A stretch of 64,000 nt of DNA. Source: Echinicola sp. 20G (GTDB lineage: Bacteria; Bacteroidota; Bacteroidia; Cytophagales; Cyclobacteriaceae). The first letter of the stretch is position 1, and the number at the start of each line of letters is the position of its first letter. The position numbers and the translations under genes are program-made. The notes beneath the pieces are model-generated. The model searched no databases and was not told the DNA's origin. It saw only the letters and a program-made list of their open reading frames with translations. This document shows, piece after piece, positions 6,196 to 23,346 of this stretch. The stretch is from positions 1,553,001 through 1,617,000 of the forward strand of contig NZ_AP024154.1 of the NCBI RefSeq assembly GCF_015533855.1, in the 5' to 3' direction.

Positions 6196-6247
6196 GGTCG
6201 TTACGGCCAGGCGCATGCTTAGTTGCCACACGTTTTTCTTTTCGTAT

Positions 6248-6529: not shown

Positions 6530-6841
6530 TTTAAATTTTGGTCAATTTGTTTTTGAGCTTTGCGTTCGGTCGGGTTTCTGAGCACAAAACTTCAATTTAT
6601 TACTAAAGCTCAATATAAGTACAAAATTTCAAGTTTACACGCCAGTCCGCCTGATGCAAAACTTGTATTATAAGCCTTTTTTCTGTCATTAGGTTAATCA
6701 TATGTCCTTTTGAAAGCTCCTTTCTATAACTACCAACTCTAGATATTATAATTTGTTCTTCGTATTGGGAATTACAAACTCCCAAGATTTGAAGGCGAAG
6801 TGACATACTTCGCTTAGAAAGGGGGTTATTGGCAATAGTTT
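6530..6841. other. Intergenic stretch, no supported gene
   Basis: 312 bases between two minus-strand genes. A 67-codon minus-strand frame (6603-6806) is open, but its composition and lack of any recognisable feature do not support a gene. A small hairpin gcgaag...cttcgc lies near 6794-6812 and the sequence toward 6841 is T-rich. The end of the preceding cassette may lie here but no clear half-site is visible. Confidence 0.4.
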
Positions 6842-7720
6842 TTATTTTTTTTGATAGGAGTCGTAAATCTCTTTGTTATCATAGTATATGTTTTCTGTTT
6901 TTCCGTTTTCTATAGAATGGATGAAATTGAGTTCAAAGTGATTTTTGAATTCTTCCGCAGAAACTGATTTACAATGTTTTATGTCATCTCTGTCAACTCC
7001 GCCAAACAGTTTGCCCGTGATGTAGCCATACAAAATCTTGTTAAGCTTTATTTTGGTTTTATTCGTGTCGGTAGCAATTATTGTTGATAAAGCCATAATG
7101 TTTATTCTGCTTTCATCTATGATGTCAAAGTGTAGGTAAAAAAGACTATCTGATAGATTCTTATCTAATGTGTAGCTATATCCATGCCCTGCCTGAATTG
7201 AATTAAAGATGTCAGCTTTGCTCAATTCCATTTCATATTCTGCGTTTACAACTAAGTTCAAATCAACTTTTTCTCTTGGTAAGGCCGTTGCCCATATTGA
7301 AAATAGAGTAGCGAGCCCAAGAGGAACAGTCAAGTGCTTATTAATTTTTTGTTCGGTAGAAAGTTGTTTTTGAAAGTACCTGTATGAAATTGGAAGGATG
7401 ATTAAAGCGAATAAATCCGTGAAGTCAATTACTCTATTGAAGCCAATTCCTAAAGATTGTGCCCAATTGATTAGGTCTTGTGAAAAATGAGATTTCCAAA
7501 ATATGAATAGCACAGCAGTTCCTAAATAGATGGATTTATTCCATTTAACTAGAAGACTTGACAAAAAATAGGGAAACAGAAAAAGTCCTGCTATGTCTGA
7601 TAGTATTCCAGTCAAAAAATTTGAGAACTCATATTTTAGATAGAAGTCATTAAACAGCAATAGCCCTAAAGCTAAAATGAACAGAGGTCTGGATAAAATG
7701 TCAGGTCTAGTGGGTCTCAT
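6842..7720 (-). CDS. Hypothetical integral membrane protein
   Basis: 292 residues. The N-terminal half holds about four hydrophobic segments (roughly residues 12-28, 34-56, 64-80 and 95-112, with a further one near 130-148). The C-terminal half is hydrophilic and probably forms a separate soluble domain. I do not recognise a family. It sits alone, in the same direction as the other island genes, with an AT-rich 141-base gap to the next gene. Low GC content compared with the flanking core genes fits an acquired gene. Confidence 0.6.
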   Translation of the reverse strand: MRPTRPDILSRPLFILALGLLLFNDFYLKYEFSNFLTGILSDIAGLFLFPYFLSSLLVKWNKSIYLGTAVLFIFWKSHFSQDLINWAQSLGIGFNRVIDFTDLFALIILPISYRYFQKQLSTEQKINKHLTVPLGLATLFSIWATALPREKVDLNLVVNAEYEMELSKADIFNSIQAGHGYSYTLDKNLSDSLFYLHFDIIDESRINIMALSTIIATDTNKTKIKLNKILYGYITGKLFGGVDRDDIKHCKSVSAEEFKNHFELNFIHSIENGKTENIYYDNKEIYDSYQKK

Positions 7721-7861
7721 TTTAAATTCTGACTAGCGTAAAGAAAAATACAATTAATTACCTTTTAAAATCACAATTCCTCAAAACTGTTCCTAAGCTA
7801 TAATAGGCTTTCAACCGTTAAGCCTTGAAAGTAAATGTTTATATATAGTACCTTTTATTTT

Positions 7862-8293
7862 TTAAATTACCCATTTTACGATTGTCACTATTCCTACGAT
7901 TGCTGAAATAATTGCTATCAGTATTGCACTAATACAGCCAAACTTCATTGTCTTGTCTTTCCAAGTTTCCATATAAGGCTCTTGTTTGACATTAGTTCTA
8001 ATTACGTCTATAGGCTCAACGTACTGTATGTATGTGGAGCAATCATCGTCAATCCAATCTTCATCAAATCCTAAAGGAAAAACTGACTCTTCCTTTTCAC
8101 TCTTTAATAGTTCCTCCGAGTCTCGCGCAGCTTTTAGAATTTCTAAAGCAAAAAGTTCAAGTCCTTCTTTGCTTGCTTTTATAAAGCTTTCGTCTGGTCC
8201 ACCACCATATTCGAAGATACCGAAATAAGCTTTTTCTTTTCGATCTTCTTTTTCAAGCTTGTCAATAATATTTTGAAGGTTCTTTTTATTCAC
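7862..8293 (-). CDS. Hypothetical protein with C-terminal membrane anchor
   Basis: 143 residues from a GTG start at 8293. The first 110 residues are soluble and acidic (IDDDCSTYIQYVEP); the last 25 form one transmembrane helix (GCISAILIAIISAIVGIVTI). The segment ESFIKASKEGLELFALEIL loosely recalls small immunity proteins that carry an N/KEGL...A..L helix, but this is only a resemblance. It is the fourth cassette gene: the site half before it (aatggtggccaacgtc on the plus strand, 8309-8324) closes the hairpin element at 8311-8435. No matching half-site is found after it. Confidence 0.55.
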   Translation of the reverse strand: MNKKNLQNIIDKLEKEDRKEKAYFGIFEYGGGPDESFIKASKEGLELFALEILKAARDSEELLKSEKEESVFPLGFDEDWIDDDCSTYIQYVEPIDVIRTNVKQEPYMETWKDKTMKFGCISAILIAIISAIVGIVTIVKWVI

Positions 8294-8310
8294 TAATAGC
8301 GTTTTTCAAA

Positions 8311-8435
8311 TGGTGGCCAACGTCAAGCGAGCAGGAGTGAGCTGGACTTTTCAATTTCTATAAAAGTATCTCATCGCACTAGCCTTTGCAAATAGCTCAT
8401 TTAGCTTATGGATGATAGTGTCTGTTGTGTGCTGC
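8311..8435 (-). repeat. attC-like recombination site between island cassettes
   Basis: Imperfect 125-nt hairpin filling the gap between two island genes. In gene direction (minus) it opens with AGCACACAAC directly after the preceding gene's stop and closes with GACGTTGGCCACC just before the next gene. The opening half-site is complementary to the half-site that precedes the upstream gene pair (ccgttgtgtgcc), as expected for an integron cassette carrying its own R'' and R' halves. Inner pairing involves agcgagca...gtgagct against agctaaatgagct. Confidence 0.55.
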
Positions 8436-8438
8436 ATC

Positions 8439-9467
8439 TTATTGATAAGGATTGAAATATTCGAATTCTTTTATGCGCTTGATCAGTTCAGGAATTAGCC
8501 AAAGTTTTCCGTCCGATACGTTTTGAAAGAAGGGCAAACTATCGGATTCATAGTAGTACGCATATATGACGGCCGAAGCGTTTCTCGAATGAATAGGTAA
8601 GTTTTCATCTAGAATGAATTCCTGTAAATATTCCCTTATTCCATTCACTTTTGATAGAATAGCCTCAATCGACTGGCCAATTGTTCCTCTCTGAATTCCT
8701 TCTTCTTCTGTTATTTCAGAAATCAATCTTAGCACTACCTCCTTGGGAAGAGTATTAAGCTTATCTAGGACATATTCTTTGATATCTGTATTTATCATCT
8801 CACCAGAGTAAAAAATATCTGGATGCCAAGGTATATGTGACAAATAATGAATTATTCGTCTTGAAGGCACTTCTTCGTTTTTCAAATGTTTTAAAAAACA
8901 GTTCCAAGTTTCAAGGGAATTAACGAACCTTCTAAAAAGGACTACCGAACCTAAAACGAATTCGTTTTCGTGATCTGAATTAAACAAAGAAATCGCAGTA
9001 GCCTGATCGAGTTCAGGGGTTTCGTTAAGAACATTAGGAACAAATAATCGCTTAAAATTCAATGCATCAAATTGGTTACTTCGGTTACCAATAAACTTGA
9101 TAATTTTTGCTTCTTTATTGTCTTTTAAATAGGCTTTTATATTGATCCAATAACCTAACCCAAGCTCGGGTATAAATACGATCCCACACACAGGTAATGG
9201 ATGATTTAACCAGTATTCGAAATGATATTCAACAGGGATTAAACATTCATTTTTCTTTGAGTTGAAATACGATGGTCCTGATTTTATTTGAACTGCCAAA
9301 CTCTTGTGTGTTGGTGTTTCACCCTTGAGTAATTCAACAATTCCATCAATACCAAGGTCATTTTCTTGTTCAATCTTGTGGAATAGACACCCTGAATCTT
9401 CAACAATTCCACGAACAAAGTTTATTCCTTTTTTTGCGGTAATATTCGTCCCTTTATACTTGACCAT
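8439..9467 (-). CDS. DUF4365 domain protein, predicted PD-(D/E)XK nuclease fold
   Basis: 342 residues. The first 125 residues match the DUF4365 pattern: an ENDLGIDGIVE segment with Asp41, followed by SLAVQIKSG where Gln60-x-Lys62 would complete a PD-(D/E)XK-type active site. The remaining 200 residues are helical, without a clear family, and may be a HEAT-like or regulatory part. DUF4365 proteins are frequent in defence-type accessory regions, so a role in restriction of foreign DNA is possible but not shown. The start overlaps the end of the upstream gene by 14 bases, implying translational coupling. Both genes sit in one cassette. Confidence 0.7.
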   Translation of the reverse strand: MVKYKGTNITAKKGINFVRGIVEDSGCLFHKIEQENDLGIDGIVELLKGETPTHKSLAVQIKSGPSYFNSKKNECLIPVEYHFEYWLNHPLPVCGIVFIPELGLGYWINIKAYLKDNKEAKIIKFIGNRSNQFDALNFKRLFVPNVLNETPELDQATAISLFNSDHENEFVLGSVVLFRRFVNSLETWNCFLKHLKNEEVPSRRIIHYLSHIPWHPDIFYSGEMINTDIKEYVLDKLNTLPKEVVLRLISEITEEEGIQRGTIGQSIEAILSKVNGIREYLQEFILDENLPIHSRNASAVIYAYYYESDSLPFFQNVSDGKLWLIPELIKRIKEFEYFNPYQ

Positions 9468-9780
9468 TGGCTGAATTGATTAGCTGAATTTTTGCGTAGG
9501 GTTTGTCATAAGGAATATCCTCACCGTTTGCTGAAAAGTAGCCAATTTCGGTATTCGAGTTAATAAGTTGTCCCTTCTGAAGTTTAGTATTTATGGATGA
9601 TGGAAAGCAAGGACAGTTACTATATATGGCAGCCTGTTGTCCGTTAAAAATTACTTTTGCAATCTTCACTTTTTCCTGATGAAATTCTCCAAATGATGAT
9701 TCAATGAAATGTTCAAATATCACTTCATCTGTTGGCTGCAATTCACCGTTGTTCAATTGAAATTTACATGAAAATGGCAT
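9454..9780 (-). CDS. Hypothetical protein coupled to the DUF4365 gene
   Basis: 108 residues, beta-rich by eye, soluble, no signal peptide. The region KGQLINSNTEIGYFSANGED faintly recalls a half barrel of biotinyl/lipoyl-like domains, but no lysine attachment motif is present. Its last codons overlap the start of the nuclease-like gene by 14 bases, so the two are likely translated together and act together. Immediately upstream is the half-site ttggcacacaacgg that starts their cassette. Function unknown. Confidence 0.6.
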   Translation of the reverse strand: MPFSCKFQLNNGELQPTDEVIFEHFIESSFGEFHQEKVKIAKVIFNGQQAAIYSNCPCFPSSINTKLQKGQLINSNTEIGYFSANGEDIPYDKPYAKIQLINSANGQV

Positions 9781-9803
9781 GGTTCTTTTTTAGAAGCACA
9801 ATT

Positions 9804-10203
9804 GGCACACAACGGTCTCGCATAAGAGCAGTGGTGGATTTAAGACCAAAGTCTTTTCCACCAAGACCGACTTTTATTATTAGTACTATCGTTTGATTTA
9901 TAGCTATCACCTCCATTGCTTTTATGCATTGTGTGTGCCCAGCATGGGCATCTGGTATCGAAGATACCAAATTATTCCAGAGGGTGAAAGTCCCTTACAG
10001 GCGGGTTCGATTTCGAGCCTTTGCGTAGCCTTATATTAGAAGTATCGGAAAGGGGTGTTGGTGTAAAGATCAGCACCCCAGTGCTTTACGAATAGCCGTA
10101 CCTGCCTTGTCAGCAGACAGGTAAGAGACCCGTACATACGGTGGTGTGAGAGCCTCAATCTGAGCCAATTGGCTCAGGTCGGGCTACTCGATTACCCAAC
10201 GTT
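9804..10203 (-). repeat. attC-like site, interrupted by a group II intron relic
   Basis: The arms 9804-9837 (ggcacacaac...gcataagagcagtggtgg) and 9907-9932 (tcacctccattgcttttatgc, then attgt) pair over some 17 bases with a few mismatches. Removing the intron (9933-10192) joins attgt to tacccaacg, restoring a site of about 140 nt like its two neighbours. The restored end gttacccaac is complementary to gttgggtaac at the other end of the same gene (10783-10792), while ggcacacaac is complementary to the end of the next cassette. This is the cassette pattern of integrons. Confidence 0.6.
9933..10192 (+). mobile_element. Internally deleted, ORF-less group II intron
   Basis: Starts with gtgtg (consensus GUGYG) and a 5' hairpin tgccc-agcat-gggca, followed by gagggtgaaagtccc, a typical domain I segment. 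Near the 3' end agccgta (10094-10100) and tacggt (10137-10142) are the outer strands of domain V, followed by ggtgtgagag, a domain VI hairpin (ctgagccaattggctcag) and the 3' end ctactcgat. Only 260 nt remain, so most of the ribozyme and any reverse transcriptase gene are gone. A 21-nt palindrome-like insert (10101-10121) splits domain V. It lies antisense to the cassette genes, directly after TTGT. Splicing ability is very unlikely. Confidence 0.72.
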
Positions 10204-10773
10204 TTTTATCTCACGTTTTTCAAGTTCCAATTCTAATTCAATTCGGTCTTTTCTAATCATTCTTCTACCTTTATTATACTTGGCGTTTTTCTCGTCATCA
10301 ATTAATTCCTCAATCAAAAATTCAAGCTCCGAATTCGTTAATTCCTTTGGTGTTTTTTCATAAATACTATGGTCAACTTCCGATTTGTCTAATCGAGTAT
10401 TTTCCAATTCATTTATTCGTTCCGTTGGTTTTTGTGTTTCCACTGCAACCAATTCGTATTCCGACTTTGGTAAATCCAATTTGCCAATTATTTTCAAGTA
10501 GTCATTTAAAATCCTTTTTTCCACATAGATTTTCCCTCCACCAAATTTGTGTCGGTCAGACATATCTCTTTTAACACCTGAAATCCAATATTCATTTCCG
10601 CTTTCAATGTCAAAATAGTTAGCTGAAATTCCTGTTCCGTTTAGACTTTGAAACGCTTTTCCGTCAAAGTAGATTGTCTTTCCGCTTTTTGAAAAAGAAA
10701 CCATTCCAATCCAAGCTGGTCCATTATCCGAAAATCCACTTTTCAGTTCTAAATATTTAATTTCAGTTCGCAT
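10192..10773 (-). CDS. Conserved hypothetical cassette protein
   Basis: 193 residues. The first 100 residues (NGPAWIGMVSFSKSGKTIYF, then ISANYFDIESGNEYWISGVK, RHKFGGGKI) form a compact, beta-rich domain that I recognise as a widespread uncharacterised family; some database members carry misleading enzyme names. The second half is charged and helical, ending in Lys/Glu-rich sequence. Its stop codon TAA straddles the 3' end of the intron, and the intron-free sequence would give the same stop. Flanked by complementary half-sites gttacccaac and gttgggtaac, it is the clearest single-gene cassette in the island. Function unknown. Confidence 0.65.
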   Translation of the reverse strand: MRTEIKYLELKSGFSDNGPAWIGMVSFSKSGKTIYFDGKAFQSLNGTGISANYFDIESGNEYWISGVKRDMSDRHKFGGGKIYVEKRILNDYLKIIGKLDLPKSEYELVAVETQKPTERINELENTRLDKSEVDHSIYEKTPKELTNSELEFLIEELIDDEKNAKYNKGRRMIRKDRIELELELEKREIKNVG

Positions 10774-10782
10774 TTCTCAAAT

Positions 10783-10920
10783 GTTGGGTAACGGTTTTGC
10801 GGTATGAAACGGTTGGGTTTTCGGAGCGCGTTCGTATCCACCGTGGAAAAAGTTGATGCGAGAACAAACGCTCGCAAACCACTGAACCCCAAATGTTTTA
10901 TGACAGCATGTTGTGTGGCG
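10783..10920 (-). repeat. attC-like recombination site
   Basis: 138-nt imperfect hairpin that fills the gap between two genes. Ends on the plus strand: gttgggtaacgg (10783-10794) and gcatgttgtgtggcg (10906-10920). Inner arms tatgaaac/gttttatga and gagcgcgttcgt/acaaacgctc pair. A long frame that reads through it on the minus strand (10749-10952) is not a gene. Confidence 0.6.
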
Positions 10921-10948
10921 TTTTTATTTTTCACCTTTTTATTATTAA

Positions 10949-11353
10949 TCATAAATTACTAAATATCCAATCATTGTTTTTATACATACCAGCAATTAGC
11001 ATAATAAAGAAACTTATCACATAATAAATAATAATTATTAAAATTGGATGAACCTGTAATCCGTTTTTACTTCTCTCTGAATATTTTGCAACAATCCTTT
11101 TATATCTCCCTTTATACAGATAGTAAAAAAGTAATATTCCAATCAAGCCGAAAGAAAAAGGATATTTGTACTTTTCTTTAAAATCTACATTAATCAAACC
11201 AACTCCTTCAAGAACAAAGCTAATCGCAAAAATATTGAACATTACACAAGCAGCCACGAATATCAAACCGCCTAAAGCAGGAATGTCATCGAAGTTTCTT
11301 GACCTCTTTGCAAGTAAATATGATTTATAAAATAAGTAATTATAAATTCTCAT
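10949..11353 (-). CDS. Hypothetical small membrane protein
   Basis: 134 residues with three likely transmembrane helices (about residues 27-50, 66-82 and 102-122) and basic loops. No family recognised. It is the first cassette after the broken recombinase: upstream lies ttgtgtgcc (minus strand, 11461-11469) and directly downstream cgccacacaac, which are near-complementary half-sites. Confidence 0.55.
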   Translation of the reverse strand: MRIYNYLFYKSYLLAKRSRNFDDIPALGGLIFVAACVMFNIFAISFVLEGVGLINVDFKEKYKYPFSFGLIGILLFYYLYKGRYKRIVAKYSERSKNGLQVHPILIIIIYYVISFFIMLIAGMYKNNDWIFSNL

Positions 11354-11460
11354 TATTTGTTTAATAATCCGTTTTTTTAATTATTAATATCTAGATATTA
11401 TATTCCTCAAACTCTTATCTTTTACATCGATAATTAAAGTGTCGATTCTCTGTTTTTAAA

Positions 11461-11500
11461 TGGCACACAATGAGTGGCTAAACGCATTGCGTTTATATCT
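11461..11500 (-). other. attI-like half-site next to the recombinase remnant
   Basis: On the minus strand, between the recombinase remnant and the first cassette, the sequence acgcaatgcgt...cattgtgtgcc appears. ttgtgtgcc matches the half-site expected before the first cassette (complement of its own downstream half cacacaac, one base different). aacgcaatgcgtt is a short imperfect palindrome. Position and half-site suggest the primary attachment site of a former integron; a single half-site is weak evidence alone. Confidence 0.4.
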
Positions 11501-11535
11501 CTTATATTTTGATCTGAAAACCTACAACTAATAAT

Positions 11536-11808
11536 TTAAATATCCAATCCTTCTAAAGGGCTTTTAATAGAAGAAAAACCCTTAGTCGTCACATGTGTAT
11601 GAATTTGGGTGGTTTTCGGACTTTCATGGCCTAGCGAACTTTGGATATACCTATTATCTGTCCCGTTTTCCAGTAAATGGGTAGCAAAGGAATGCCTTAG
11701 TGTGTGTGCGGTTACCTGCTTTTTGATCCCCCTTTTATTTACAATCTTCTTTACAACGTGCTGAATATTCCACCAACTTTTGGCGTCCTTAAATAAGGAT
11801 AAAGTCAT
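11536..11808 (-). pseudogene. C-terminal remnant of a tyrosine recombinase (integron/Xer type)
   Basis: 90 codons remain of a recombinase normally about 300-320 residues long. [13 protein letters not shown] supplies the HxxR box and [10 protein letters not shown] the second His. The place of the catalytic Tyr, normally IYTHV, reads IHTHV, so the nucleophile is lost. The C-terminus KSPLEGL fits the Xer/IntI-like branch (IntI proteins end in a similar RSPLD). An in-frame TAG two codons before the first Met shows that the N-terminal part was removed. It sits beside the cassette array and points the same way as the cassettes. Confidence 0.8.
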
Positions 11809-12232
11809 GACTTGCTAACAATAAGTCTCAATAAGTTATGCCGTTTCCCTACACCATTCAGGTATCAACCTTACCCTTCCTAGGGATTGATTAGGGAACA
11901 ATTCCAAATTATCTTCGGATTCCACTCGGATAATACCGAGCTTGATCCGAAGGTAATCCGAAGGGGATCCGGGAGTGATCCGAAGAATATTCTGTTTTAC
12001 CCTAAATGGAAGTAAAAGCAGTGTAAGGACTATAAGGGAGTTGGGGGTAATAAGACGGGAGGATTAGGAGGGGCGTGTGGGTATTCCTCTGTAAAAAAGG
12101 ATCAAAATCACTCAGCATTGCATTTATACCAGCATTTCGTGGAGGTTCACCTGCCTAAAGGTTAGGCTTGCCCACCTTATAAGGTTTATCCGCTATGGTC
12201 AACTTGACTGTTTCAGCTGTCAGAACGCTTAG
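11809..12232. other. Non-coding gap between recombinase remnant and WYL regulator
   Basis: 424 bases without a gene. It contains the 11-bp repeat block and, near the WYL gene end, hairpin gcctaa-agg-ttaggc (12153-12167) and the perfect palindrome accttataaggt (12174-12185), which could terminate the WYL transcript. The rest (12000-12140) is G-rich on the plus strand and shows nothing I recognise; it probably holds the island edge. Confidence 0.45.
11944..11987. repeat. Four tandem 11-bp repeats (GATCCGAAGGT-like)
   Basis: gatccgaaggt, aatccgaaggg, gatccgggagt and gatccgaagaa follow one another with an exact 11-base period, about one helical turn. An inverted copy cttcggat lies at 11913-11920 and ctcggataataccgag (11925-11940) is an interrupted palindrome. 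Such phased direct repeats next to a recombinase or replication gene are usual for protein binding arrays. Confidence 0.65.
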
Positions 12233-20768: not shown

Positions 20769-20784
20769 CATTAGCAAAAAGATC

Positions 20785-20862
20785 AAATAAGGGGTGCCCT
20801 AAAGAAACGGGCTGAGATCATACCCATACTACCTGATCCGGGTAATGCCGGCGAAGGGAAAT
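20785..20862 (+). promoter_or_regulatory. TPP riboswitch (THI element)
   Basis: The conserved THI-box blocks are present in order: ggggtgccc, ggctgagatcatacc, acctgatccgggtaatgcc and ggcgaaggga. Spacing is that of a compact aptamer. It binds thiamine pyrophosphate and should lower expression of the downstream TonB receptor when thiamine is plentiful. The start codon of the receptor is about 97 bases further on. Confidence 0.95.
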
Positions 20863-20888
20863 GCGATTTCCGACAAAAGGAAAGTTAC

Positions 20889-20958: not shown

Positions 20959-23346
20959 ATGAAACGCTTGTTGATGACCGCAGTTTGTCTGCTGGTCGGG
21001 TTTGGTGCTATGGCACAAAATCAAGTTAATGGCCGCATAAAGGATGCGGAAACAGGAGAAGTACTAATTGGCGCCAATGTAATATTGGAAGGTACTGGTA
21101 GAGGAAGTACAGCCGATGTGGAGGGAAATTTCTCTATCAAAAATGTACCTAATGGTGCATTTACGCTTAAAGTCTCTTTTGTGGGTTACGAAACTTTTAA
21201 CCGGGAAATCCAGGTGCCTGTAGGTCAGCTGGATATTTCTTTGGAGAGGAATAGCCTGCTGACGGAAGAATTTATTGTGTCGGCTACCAGGGCCTCGGAA
21301 ACAACTCCAACTACCTTCCAGACCATTACCAAAGAGGAGCTGGCCAAAAATAATTTGGGGCAGGATATTCCGATTTTGCTTAATTATACTCCTTCTGTGG
21401 TTACCCATTCGGATGCTGGAGCAGGCATTGGCTATACAGGAATGAGAATCAGGGGTTCTGACCAGACCCGTATTAATGTGACGGTGAATGGAATTCCTAT
21501 GAATGATGCGGAATCCCACGGGGTATTTTGGGTAAATATGCCTGACTTTGCCAGCTCGGTGGACAACATCCAGATCCAACGCGGGGTAGGAACTTCTACC
21601 AATGGAGCAGCTACTTTTGGAGCCAGTATGAATATTCAGACCGACACCAAAAAAGAAGAACCCTATGCGGAAATAGCCAATTCTTATGGCTCTTTTAACT
21701 CATGGAAGCACACGGTACAAGCAGGGACAGGCTTACTCAACAATCGGTGGGCAGTAGATGCAAGGCTCTCCCAGATCAGCTCCGATGGTTATGTAGACAG
21801 GGCTTTTTCTGACTTGAAATCTTATTTTGTTTCTGGTGGATACTATGGTGATGACCATGTTTTTAAAGTAAATGTATTTTCAGGAAAAGAGCAGACTTAT
21901 CAGTCTTGGTATGGCTTGCCAGCATCCAAACTGGAGGATGACCGGACTTTCAATTATTATACCTATGATAATGAAACCGACAATTATCAGCAAGACCACT
22001 ACCAGTTCATTTATACAGGTAAGTTAGGCCAAAACTGGAAAGCCAACGTGGCATTGCATTATACTTACGGCCGAGGCTACTATGAGCAATACCGTGCGGA
22101 TGATGATTTTGCCAGTTATGGTTTGGATCCTGTAGTGATTGGAGACGAGACCATCGAAAGCACTGATATCATTAGAAGAAGGTGGCTGGACAATGATTTT
22201 TACGGAGGGGTGTTCTCTTTGAGTTATGTGTCAGATGATGGAAGATGGGATGCTATTTTAGGTGGTGGTGCCAATCGCTATGATGGGGATCATTTTGGAG
22301 AAATCATCTGGGCCAGGATAGCTGGTGATACTGAAATCAGGGATCGCTATTATGATAATAATGCGGTCAAAGACGATCGAAATGTTTATGCTAAGGCCAC
22401 CTATGAAGTAGCAGAGCGATTGTATCTTTTTGGAGACCTCCAGTTTAGACAGATTGATTACCAATTTCAAGGTGTAAATGATGATCAACGGGTAGTGGAT
22501 GGTCAGCAGCACTATGATTTCTTTAATCCAAAAGTGGGCGTCAGTTATGAATCAGGTAATGGCAAAACATGGTATGCCTCTTATGCAGTAGCCAATAGGG
22601 AGCCTGTAAGAAGTGATTTTACAGATAATCCTATTACGGAAATTCCAAGGCCGGAAAGGCTTAATAACGTGGAGGCCGGTGTTAGGGTGAAGCAAGGTAA
22701 TTTCAGCTACAATGCGAACTTCTACTACATGGGCTATCATGACCAGTTGATCCTGACAGGGCAGATCAACGATGTCGGGGCATATATCCGCGAAAATGTG
22801 AAAAACTCCTATCGAGCGGGGATTGAATTGGATGGTGCTGTAAGGTTATCCCCTATGTGGACTTTAGGGGGGAATATTGCTTTCAGTAAAAATAAGATTG
22901 ACGAGTTTACGGAATATGTGGATGATTATGCGGCTGAGGAGTTTCAGCAGGAGTCTTTTAGTTATACTGATACAGATATTGCCTTTTCACCAAATATGGT
23001 TGGCTCGGTGATGATTGACTTCAGGCCCATCAAAAACATGGAGATCAGCTGGATGACCAAATATGTGGATGACCAGTATTTGGACAATACCCAAAACGAG
23101 GGTCGAAAGCTAGATGCTTACCTCACCAATGATGTGAGGCTAGTTTATACGCTTCGTCCAAGGTTTGTGAAAGCATTGGAGTTCAATGTTAAAGTGAACA
23201 ATATTTTCAATAAAATGTATGAGCCCAATGGCTATACTTTTAGCTATTTCATTCCTGGTGGCAATGGTCGAGAGTTGGTCACTGAGAATTATTACTATCC
23301 TATGGCCGGAACCAATTTTATGGCCGGGGTAAATATTAAGTTTTAA
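20959..23346 (+). CDS. TonB-dependent outer membrane receptor, thiamine-regulated
   Basis: 795 residues. Signal peptide (ends GAMAQ), then a carboxypeptidase-regulatory-like domain (about 22-95), a TonB-dependent plug (about 105-225: RGSDQTRINVTVNGIPMNDA) and a 22-strand type barrel ending in an aromatic-rich strand with final Phe. The TPP riboswitch upstream strongly suggests that it imports thiamine or a thiamine precursor or phosphate across the outer membrane; riboswitch-controlled TonB receptors of this kind are known in Bacteroidetes. No thiamine biosynthesis or inner membrane transport gene follows; a terminator ends the unit. Confidence 0.92.
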   Translation: MKRLLMTAVCLLVGFGAMAQNQVNGRIKDAETGEVLIGANVILEGTGRGSTADVEGNFSIKNVPNGAFTLKVSFVGYETFNREIQVPVGQLDISLERNSLLTEEFIVSATRASETTPTTFQTITKEELAKNNLGQDIPILLNYTPSVVTHSDAGAGIGYTGMRIRGSDQTRINVTVNGIPMNDAESHGVFWVNMPDFASSVDNIQIQRGVGTSTNGAATFGASMNIQTDTKKEEPYAEIANSYGSFNSWKHTVQAGTGLLNNRWAVDARLSQISSDGYVDRAFSDLKSYFVSGGYYGDDHVFKVNVFSGKEQTYQSWYGLPASKLEDDRTFNYYTYDNETDNYQQDHYQFIYTGKLGQNWKANVALHYTYGRGYYEQYRADDDFASYGLDPVVIGDETIESTDIIRRRWLDNDFYGGVFSLSYVSDDGRWDAILGGGANRYDGDHFGEIIWARIAGDTEIRDRYYDNNAVKDDRNVYAKATYEVAERLYLFGDLQFRQIDYQFQGVNDDQRVVDGQQHYDFFNPKVGVSYESGNGKTWYASYAVANREPVRSDFTDNPITEIPRPERLNNVEAGVRVKQGNFSYNANFYYMGYHDQLILTGQINDVGAYIRENVKNSYRAGIELDGAVRLSPMWTLGGNIAFSKNKIDEFTEYVDDYAAEEFQQESFSYTDTDIAFSPNMVGSVMIDFRPIKNMEISWMTKYVDDQYLDNTQNEGRKLDAYLTNDVRLVYTLRPRFVKALEFNVKVNNIFNKMYEPNGYTFSYFIPGGNGRELVTENYYYPMAGTNFMAGVNIKF

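Follow-up and report, generated by a model that had tools for sequence, protein, structure and literature searches.

Organization of the integron-like locus of Echinicola sp. 20G

The stretch of DNA analysed here, referred to below as the window, comprises 64,000 nucleotides (nt) of Echinicola sp. 20G (contig NZ_AP024154.1, positions 1,553,001–1,617,000). On its minus strand, from 11808 down to 6533, an open reading frame (ORF) of 273 nt carrying the remnant of a tyrosine recombinase is followed by an attI-like segment and by genes separated by elements of about 130–150 nt. The initial annotation, made from the sequence alone, had taken the remnant and three of these elements for an inactivated integron in which recombinase and cassettes point in the same direction. 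The truncated recombinase, the attI-like junction and the attC matches support this reading of 6533–11808 as a decayed chromosomal integron with a codirectional array. In the direction of the genes, the following features were found.

11536–11808, minus strand: truncated recombinase; its last 77 codons (11539–11769) are the C-terminal part of the catalytic domain (PF00589, E = 3.6e-18)
11472–11535, minus strand: attI-like segment with the inverted repeat AACGCAATGCGTTT; its end is the cassette junction, and it lies within the match to locus L012 described below
10910–11471, minus strand: cassette 1, with a mutated R′ ATTGTGTGCC (11471–11462), a gene (10949–11353) and R″ GCCACACAAC (10919–10910)
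10779–10923, minus strand: attC-a, between cassettes 1 and 2; covariance model R1, 53.8 bits, E = 7.8e-11; distance from R″ to the next R′ 117 nt
10192–10792, minus strand: cassette 2, with R′ GTTACCCAAC (10792–10783), a gene (10192–10773) and R″ GTTGGGTAA(C), which is split by the intron
9800–10200, minus strand: attC-b, separating cassettes 2 and 3 and split by the intron; R1 match at 9800–9945, 53 bits, E = 1.2e-10; R″-to-R′ distance 117 nt with the intron removed
9933–10193, plus strand: presumed remnant of a group II intron, lying antisense to the cassettes and interrupting R″ at TTGT/T
8424–9813, minus strand: cassette 3, with R′ GTTGTGTGCC (9813–9804), two genes (9454–9780 and 8439–9467, the latter DUF4365, E = 3.2e-22) and R″ AGCACACAAC (8433–8424)
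8308–8437, minus strand: attC-c, decayed; R1 16.9 bits, E = 0.036 (weak); R″-to-R′ distance 102 nt
6681–8321, minus strand: cassette region 4, with R′ GTTGGCCACC (8321–8312) and two genes (7862–8293 and 6842–7720); no matching R″ was found in it
6533–6680, minus strand: attC-d, decayed, absent from the initial annotation; R1 36.4 bits, E = 9.3e-7

The model R1 was built from 41 attC sites of other genera and includes no sequence of the window or of its genus. A search of both strands of the 64 kb gave four matches, one of them weak (attC-c), all on the minus strand and all inside the array. Thus, the three elements noticed earlier were each matched at their positions by an independent attC model, and attC-d was added to them. 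At least two attC sites less than 4 kb apart, a criterion for an integron, are present in the window as well as in L012, L109, L127, L199, L212 and other loci of our set. BLAST of one window element against its own genome returned the element itself and two short chance matches only; BLAST fails here because the attC sites of this class share too little sequence. An Rfam search recognised neither the attC sites nor the intron (for the latter, at E ≤ 1). Among the other fetched arrays, the ORF at 6842–7720 has a single match, at the end of L109, and the remaining cassette ORFs of the window have no counterpart. Past attC-d, at 6217–6235 of the minus strand, AAACGTGTGGCAAC is shaped like another R″ (wAAC-N7-AAC), with no R′ matching it.

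It had also been proposed that the half-sites around the same gene are complementary. This holds for cassettes 2 and 3, in each of which 9/10 positions are paired as found (10/10 for cassette 2 after joining the intron flanks), and does not hold for cassette 1, whose pair is at chance level. Individually, the pairing as found is modest, being reached by 95/1500 shuffles for cassette 2 and 79/1500 for cassette 3, while only 1/1500 shuffles reached that of cassette 2 with the flanks joined. The sum over three cassettes was reached by 2/1500 shuffles as found and by 0/1500 when joined; the term for cassette 1 in this sum is an AT-rich pair different from the one noted earlier. The deviation of the half-sites from RYYYAAC/GTTRRRY is largely a habit of the class, in which R′ reads GTT-N7-A in 120/130 cases, rather than a sign of decay. 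As for folding, the bottom strands of attC-a (−24.7, z −2.8) and of attC-b with the intron removed (−21.0, z −3.0) have predicted folds more stable than those of shuffles, and attC-c, considered below, does not.

The remnant beside the first cassette proved to be the end of a tyrosine recombinase, as had been thought; nothing of the rest of the gene was found upstream of its last 77 codons. It is 84% identical to codons 386–462 of an intact recombinase of 462 aa in the same genome (L012, G000:C1:1413000-1432000). This full-length enzyme is followed by a codirectional attI-like segment and cassettes with fully complementary half-sites (GTTGGGCACA/TGTGCCCAAC, GTTAGGCACA/TGTGCCTAAC and GTTGTAGCGC/GCGCTACAAC). 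The remnant and attI of the window match L012 at 258/276 nt (93%), and the identity fades at CACTC[G/A]TTG, where the first cassettes start. The third recombinase of this class in the genome (L013, 372 aa) has behind it a cassette with GTTACCACAC/GTGTGGTAAC and three R1 matches.

The window system is dead in cis: the recombinase is truncated, attC-c is decayed and the first R′ is mutated. The deadness is limited to this locus; two intact class recombinases are present elsewhere in the same genome. It is worth noting that attC-a and, intron aside, attC-b still appear able to fold; in principle, the L012 enzyme, whose own attI is nearly identical to that of the window, could act on them in trans.

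Copies of IS110-family insertion sequences (IS) lie within several class arrays: L012 (10426–11790 and 13003–14367, with identical ORFs), L219 (13254–14255) and L220 (15920–16978). Among IS1111 elements, some are known to target attC.

Probable group II intron remnant in attC-b

About 261 nt between cassettes 2 and 3 carry what look like group II motifs on the plus strand, and we take them to be the remnant of a group II intron. The junction (GCATTGT/TACCC) has the form TTGT/T, and the orientation is opposite to that of the cassettes. The remnant contains no ORF. A second full copy was not found in the genome, and blastn gave partial matches on 10 plasmid records. In an array of the same class on a Chryseobacterium plasmid, a group II intron with a reverse transcriptase has the same type of junction and the same direction. 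Known group IIC-attC introns occupy the TTGT/T position of R″ and run against the direction of the cassettes (PMC7923331). Both the window and the Chryseobacterium copies share this site and antisense orientation with them; unlike group IIC-attC introns, the window copy is short and has neither a reverse transcriptase nor an Rfam match.

Cassette arrays behind related recombinases

A search with the A1 recombinase alignment gave at least 561 relatives, of which the best 80 were kept, and arrays were parsed behind the recombinases in named genomes. The parser required AAC/GTT, allowed R″-to-R′ distances of 35–210 nt and let a chain start at most 260 nt from the recombinase stop codon. The 78 loci that extend 800 nt or more past the recombinase were scored (77 of them are distinct, as L200 repeats L096 on the same contig). 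A score of at least 4 was found in 52/78 loci, compared with 130/3120 shuffles (4%) and 1/43 upstream opposite-strand controls, and a score of at least 8 in 27/78 loci, compared with 0.1% of shuffles and 0/43 controls. In 44 of the 52 high-scoring loci, none of the locus's own 40 shuffles reached its score. Chains reach a length of up to 14 links (Rufibacter sp., L109). The median cassette length is 751 nt, and the longest ORF is codirectional with the recombinase in 138 of the 149 cassettes carrying an ORF of at least 60 aa; seven cassettes longer than 3 kb and L200 were left out of these statistics, and L200 was also left out of the fold counts given below. The commonest R″-to-R′ spacing in the relatives is 116–119 nt (59/119). 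R1 had matches at E ≤ 0.1 in 13 of 19 other loci; it had none at this threshold in L014 (beside the window), L015 (beyond the L012 array) and the other-integrase loci L001, L004, L006 and L007.

Comparison of close relatives shows where attI lies and where cassettes begin and end. In L120 and L124, the recombinase and attI are identical over 1028 nt and diverge from GTTG on. The recombinases and attI segments of L042 and L043 (96%) and of L069 and L070 (83%) are likewise similar, and the first cassettes differ from GTT on. Together with the window and L012, these pairs display an attI that adjoins the recombinase and has a fixed insertion point, G|TT, behind which the first cassette changes. 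Furthermore, L043 carries as its second cassette, attC included, the one that stands first in L042 (93%), and the match stops 4 nt into the next R′. Exchange or reordering of cassettes between related arrays, the criterion for an integron in the broad sense, is therefore seen in L042/L043. A cassette of 897 nt is identical in L118 (12695–13591, the third cassette of a Pedobacter metagenome-assembled genome (MAG)) and in L199 (7508–8404, the sixth cassette of an array from the window's own family). The initial annotation had stated that a conserved gene order in distant relatives, or a lack of folds and of homologous sites elsewhere, would speak against an integron. The outcome was favourable to it: many homologous sites and bottom-strand folds occur elsewhere, and different cassettes stand behind nearly identical attI segments.

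The GTTGAAC motif occurs at attI just past the recombinase stop codon in L038, L040, L060 and L112. In L038 and L040 it is followed by a gene for a recombinase of 269 aa and by IS91-like transposase sequence; attI or attC may be the targets to which such elements home. The 269-aa relatives (L038b, L040b and L044), which we read as standing ahead of IS91-like transposase genes, were excluded.

attC sites of the class and canonical attC sites

For comparison, 20 IntI loci of the phylum were picked by hand, with long contigs favoured; 17 of them gave an integrase to the search pattern and 15 an array, which was divergent from the integrase in 12/15 and codirectional in 3/15. Folds are predicted minimum-energy folds, with loops counted after at least 6 pairs and up to pair 28 under identical settings for both groups. 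The class sets comprise 66 training and 26 sampled attC sites with spacings of 46–55 or 114–123 nt, and the 68 canonical sites, 14 of which have no loop under the rule used, were unfiltered by spacing. When 41 sites were aligned with MAFFT, RNAalifold recovered no more than 6 pairs because the variable middles upset the alignment; therefore, sites were folded singly.

The predicted fold of the bottom strand is more stable than that of the top strand in 61/66 training and 20/26 sampled class sites and in 52/68 canonical ones, and the class hairpins beat their inner shuffles (mean z −3.6). A spacer or first loop of the 4+0 form is the commonest in class and canonical sites alike. The difference lies in the L stem. 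A 1-nt bulge on the L″ side was predicted in 5/66 and 2/26 class sites (7/92; 4–7/66 and 2–4/26 under other settings) versus 50/68 canonical ones, whereas a 1×1 mismatch was predicted in 45/66 and 15/26 class sites (60/92) versus 4/68 canonical ones. The A at the 11th base of R′, so frequent in the class, occurs in 8/68 canonical sites. This A is usually opposite C, and pairing resumes behind it, forming a conserved mismatch beside the R stem that is also found in cassettes 2, 3 and 4 of the window. The full GTTRRRY is present in 19/130 R′ half-sites of the class and, in the same count, 11/68 canonical ones, AAC/GTT being imposed by the parser. R1 gave nothing significant on 31 canonical IntI loci (112 kb, with short flanks; best E 0.18).

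The class recombinase

Judged by its sequence, the class recombinase is not an IntI, since it lacks the IntI-specific domain. Its KGKKDR-like motif stands 64–69 aa from HxLRHS in 77/80 class members, compared with 106 aa in the 7/29 IntI proteins in which this motif was recognised; with a wider motif, the same two spacings were found in 79/80 and 25/29, respectively. In the alignment to the IntI structure 2a3v, about 28 residues are skipped between these two motifs. The class recombinase scores 232 bits with TIGR02249 (NCBIfam integron integrase), under the cut-off of 265. The proteins of L002 and L003 reach 227 and 230 bits with NF040815 (cut-off 220), a family named "site-specific tyrosine recombinase/integron integrase".

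An AlphaFold2 model of the L013 protein predicts with confidence an N-terminal arm at residues 1–70 (blocks with a predicted local distance difference test score, pLDDT, of 87–95) and, behind it, core-binding and catalytic domains that resemble Xer and IntI structures. Such an extra arm is usual in the class members modelled or aligned. Among the PDB matches listed for this model, all align from residue 87 onward except one to lambda integrase, which starts at residue 5. We draw no conclusion on the fold of the arm.

IntI proteins form a single group in both trees built (support of 98 and 100 in the Shimodaira–Hasegawa-like approximate likelihood ratio test, SH-aLRT), each of which has only one or two Xer outgroups. 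The first tree places IntI within the array recombinases. The second, made from fewer rows, separates these recombinases from all others by a single branch, and constraining the class to one clade is not rejected (p 0.65). An origin of IntI inside the class, as drawn by the first tree, was therefore dropped as unsettled.

In Vibrio attC, the choice of strand is made by the extrahelical G of L″ (PMC2727003). For the class, no result is more telling than the joint absence of the IntI domain and, in most sites, of a predicted bulged base; the two losses may be causally linked.

Proposed mechanism and alternative explanations

Based on the above results, we consider it highly probable that the window holds a decayed chromosomal integron, that its class, found widely across Bacteroidia, relies on a tyrosine recombinase lacking the IntI-specific domain, and that intact members would work as integrons do. 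The intact recombinase would join the attC of a cassette to attI at G|TT, using attC as a folded single bottom strand. New cassettes would enter beside the recombinase and in the same direction. The recognition of sites, which in canonical integrons belongs to the IntI domain and the bulged base, may have passed to the N-terminal arm and the L-stem mismatch. With less confidence, we lean towards the view that Bacteroidia possess a second type of integron, in which a domain-less recombinase acts on folded attC sites, the L-stem mismatch replaces the strand-selecting bulge and the arm probably reads the site in place of the missing domain. This would imply a joint change of enzyme and site, and the type would be invisible to IntI-domain searches.

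Several observations weigh against this explanation. The evidence for the function of the class is comparative throughout. In the window, the cassette 1 pair of the initial annotation (8/10) is within chance, since 867/3000 shuffles reach 8; no complementary half-site pair was found for cassette 4, that is, in the stretch from the third to the fourth element; and the bottom-strand fold of attC-c (−16.0, z −0.1) is no more stable than that of shuffles. In the relatives, the array score is below 4 in 26/78 loci. The parser covered the side downstream of the recombinase, the upstream side serving only as a control. Twenty class genomes were sampled, picked by hand across the ranking of the profile search with long contigs favoured; 15 of them score at least 4, and the scores of three (L206, L214 and L216) are reached by 5–12.5% of their own shuffles. 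In the cassette shared by L118 and L199, the attC past R″ diverges after 6 nt, which simple cassette movement does not explain; an attC swap, a chimeric assembly and another insertion cannot be told apart. As to the arm, PF07443 (HARP) matched 2/31 members at E ≤ 0.01, with one other protein above the cut-off. Since the matches are so few, a "HARP-like" arm is a lead only, and the idea that all members carry one was dropped.

Cassettes could also be captured through double-stranded core sites or Xer-type modules, of which pdif modules are an example, rather than through a folded single strand. The recombinase has no IntI domain and is near Xer/XerA enzymes in sequence and fold, and the strand preference of the class rests on predicted folds. 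However, R″ is separated from R′ by about 117 nt and meets it only in the hairpin, which favours the bottom strand in the 61/66 and 20/26 sites mentioned above and has an asymmetric spacer beside the R stem, as in canonical sites; we regard such capture as unlikely. It is very improbable that the window is what remains of a canonical integron without its IntI, a cluster of attC sites lacking integron-integrases (CALIN), with the remnant of an unrelated Xer-like recombinase adjacent by chance. The elements do resemble attC, and integrase-free attC clusters are common (PMC9024848), but the remnant and attI are common to the window and L012 as one block, arrays stand behind the class recombinase in 52/78 loci, and canonical IntI was found in just 1/395 Bacteroidia genomes. 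Moreover, the attC model had no significant match in the 31 canonical loci, and the bulged base is mostly missing.

Finally, the elements might be terminators or a dispersed repeat between ordinary genes, without any recombination. They are indeed intergenic hairpins of uniform length, and the attC model also matches genomes that yielded no class recombinase at the threshold applied to it. This explanation is scarcely credible given that the half-sites belong to the cassette rather than to the element, that first cassettes switch exactly at GTT behind a constant attI, that one cassette has moved together with its attC and that the ORFs are so predominantly codirectional (138/149).

Distribution

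Canonical IntI (TIGR02249 above its cut-off, best 5 candidates per genome) was found in 105/395 genomes of the phylum and 1/395 Bacteroidia genomes, the assignment to the class Bacteroidia being made from named relatives. The A1 profile matched 201/395 Bacteroidia genomes at E ≤ 1e-60 (best 4 candidates per genome), a count of recombinases and not of arrays, and the attC model matched 217/295 genomes at E ≤ 0.001 (best 10). Among plasmids, 39 records match the recombinase at E ≤ 1e-50, 6 of them with at least 80% query coverage; arrays of three cassettes and of one were parsed on two records. Class-type recombinases with paired half-sites were also seen in MAGs labelled as non-Bacteroidota (L079, L087 and L114, labelled Nitrospinae, Nitrospirae and Micrarchaeota, and L085, labelled Rhodobacteraceae), for which binning errors are possible.

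Relation to known integrons

Integrons in Bacteroidota as such are already known. IntegronFinder 2 reported one complete integron in Bacteroidetes (Salinibacter), in addition to an earlier In0 (PMC9024848). The IntI chromosomal integrons of Bacteroidota outside Bacteroidia share with the class an attI beside the recombinase, insertion at G|TT, a cassette composed of R′, gene, R″ and attC, and attC sites many of which are near 110–120 nt, fold on the bottom strand and have an asymmetric spacer beside the R stem. The class differs from them in the missing IntI domain, in its codirectional arrays (canonical ones being mostly divergent), and in having attC sites that are rarely bulged at L″ and often 1×1 mismatched. 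The likeness to Treponema integrons suggested by the initial annotation holds for the orientation, since integrase and cassettes are codirectional there too, and does not extend to the type of recombinase: Treponema integrons have intI (PMC3607928).

The kinship of the class protein with IntI has already been noticed, as follows from the name of NF040815 and from a remark on an "Integron-like" subgroup of tyrosine recombinases, in which the insertion is not fully conserved and is nevertheless termed essential for integron function (PMC8138268). In the available part of that paper, the insertion-less members are not tied to a cassette array, attI or attC. The IntI-specific domain sets integron integrases apart from other tyrosine recombinases, and IntegronFinder relies on it (PMC9668308); in our reading, the class would be missed by searches of this kind. 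In the open-access literature, with preprints, most subscription papers and supplements outside the scope of the search, we came across no account of Bacteroidia cassette arrays whose recombinase lacks the domain.

If the class is active, the capture of cassettes, partly plasmid-borne, would be common in a large class of bacteria, both environmental and host-associated, that was thought to be nearly devoid of it, and roughly half of Bacteroidia genomes and some plasmids would be equipped for it. The class also allows two questions to be tested: what purpose the IntI domain and the bulge serve, and whether integron recombination has a single origin or was built a second time from another Xer-like enzyme.

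Outside the integron, the window contains a thiamine pyrophosphate (TPP) riboswitch at 20780–20876 on the plus strand (62 bits, gathering score 54.3), located upstream of an ORF (20959–23346) that resembles a TonB-dependent receptor.

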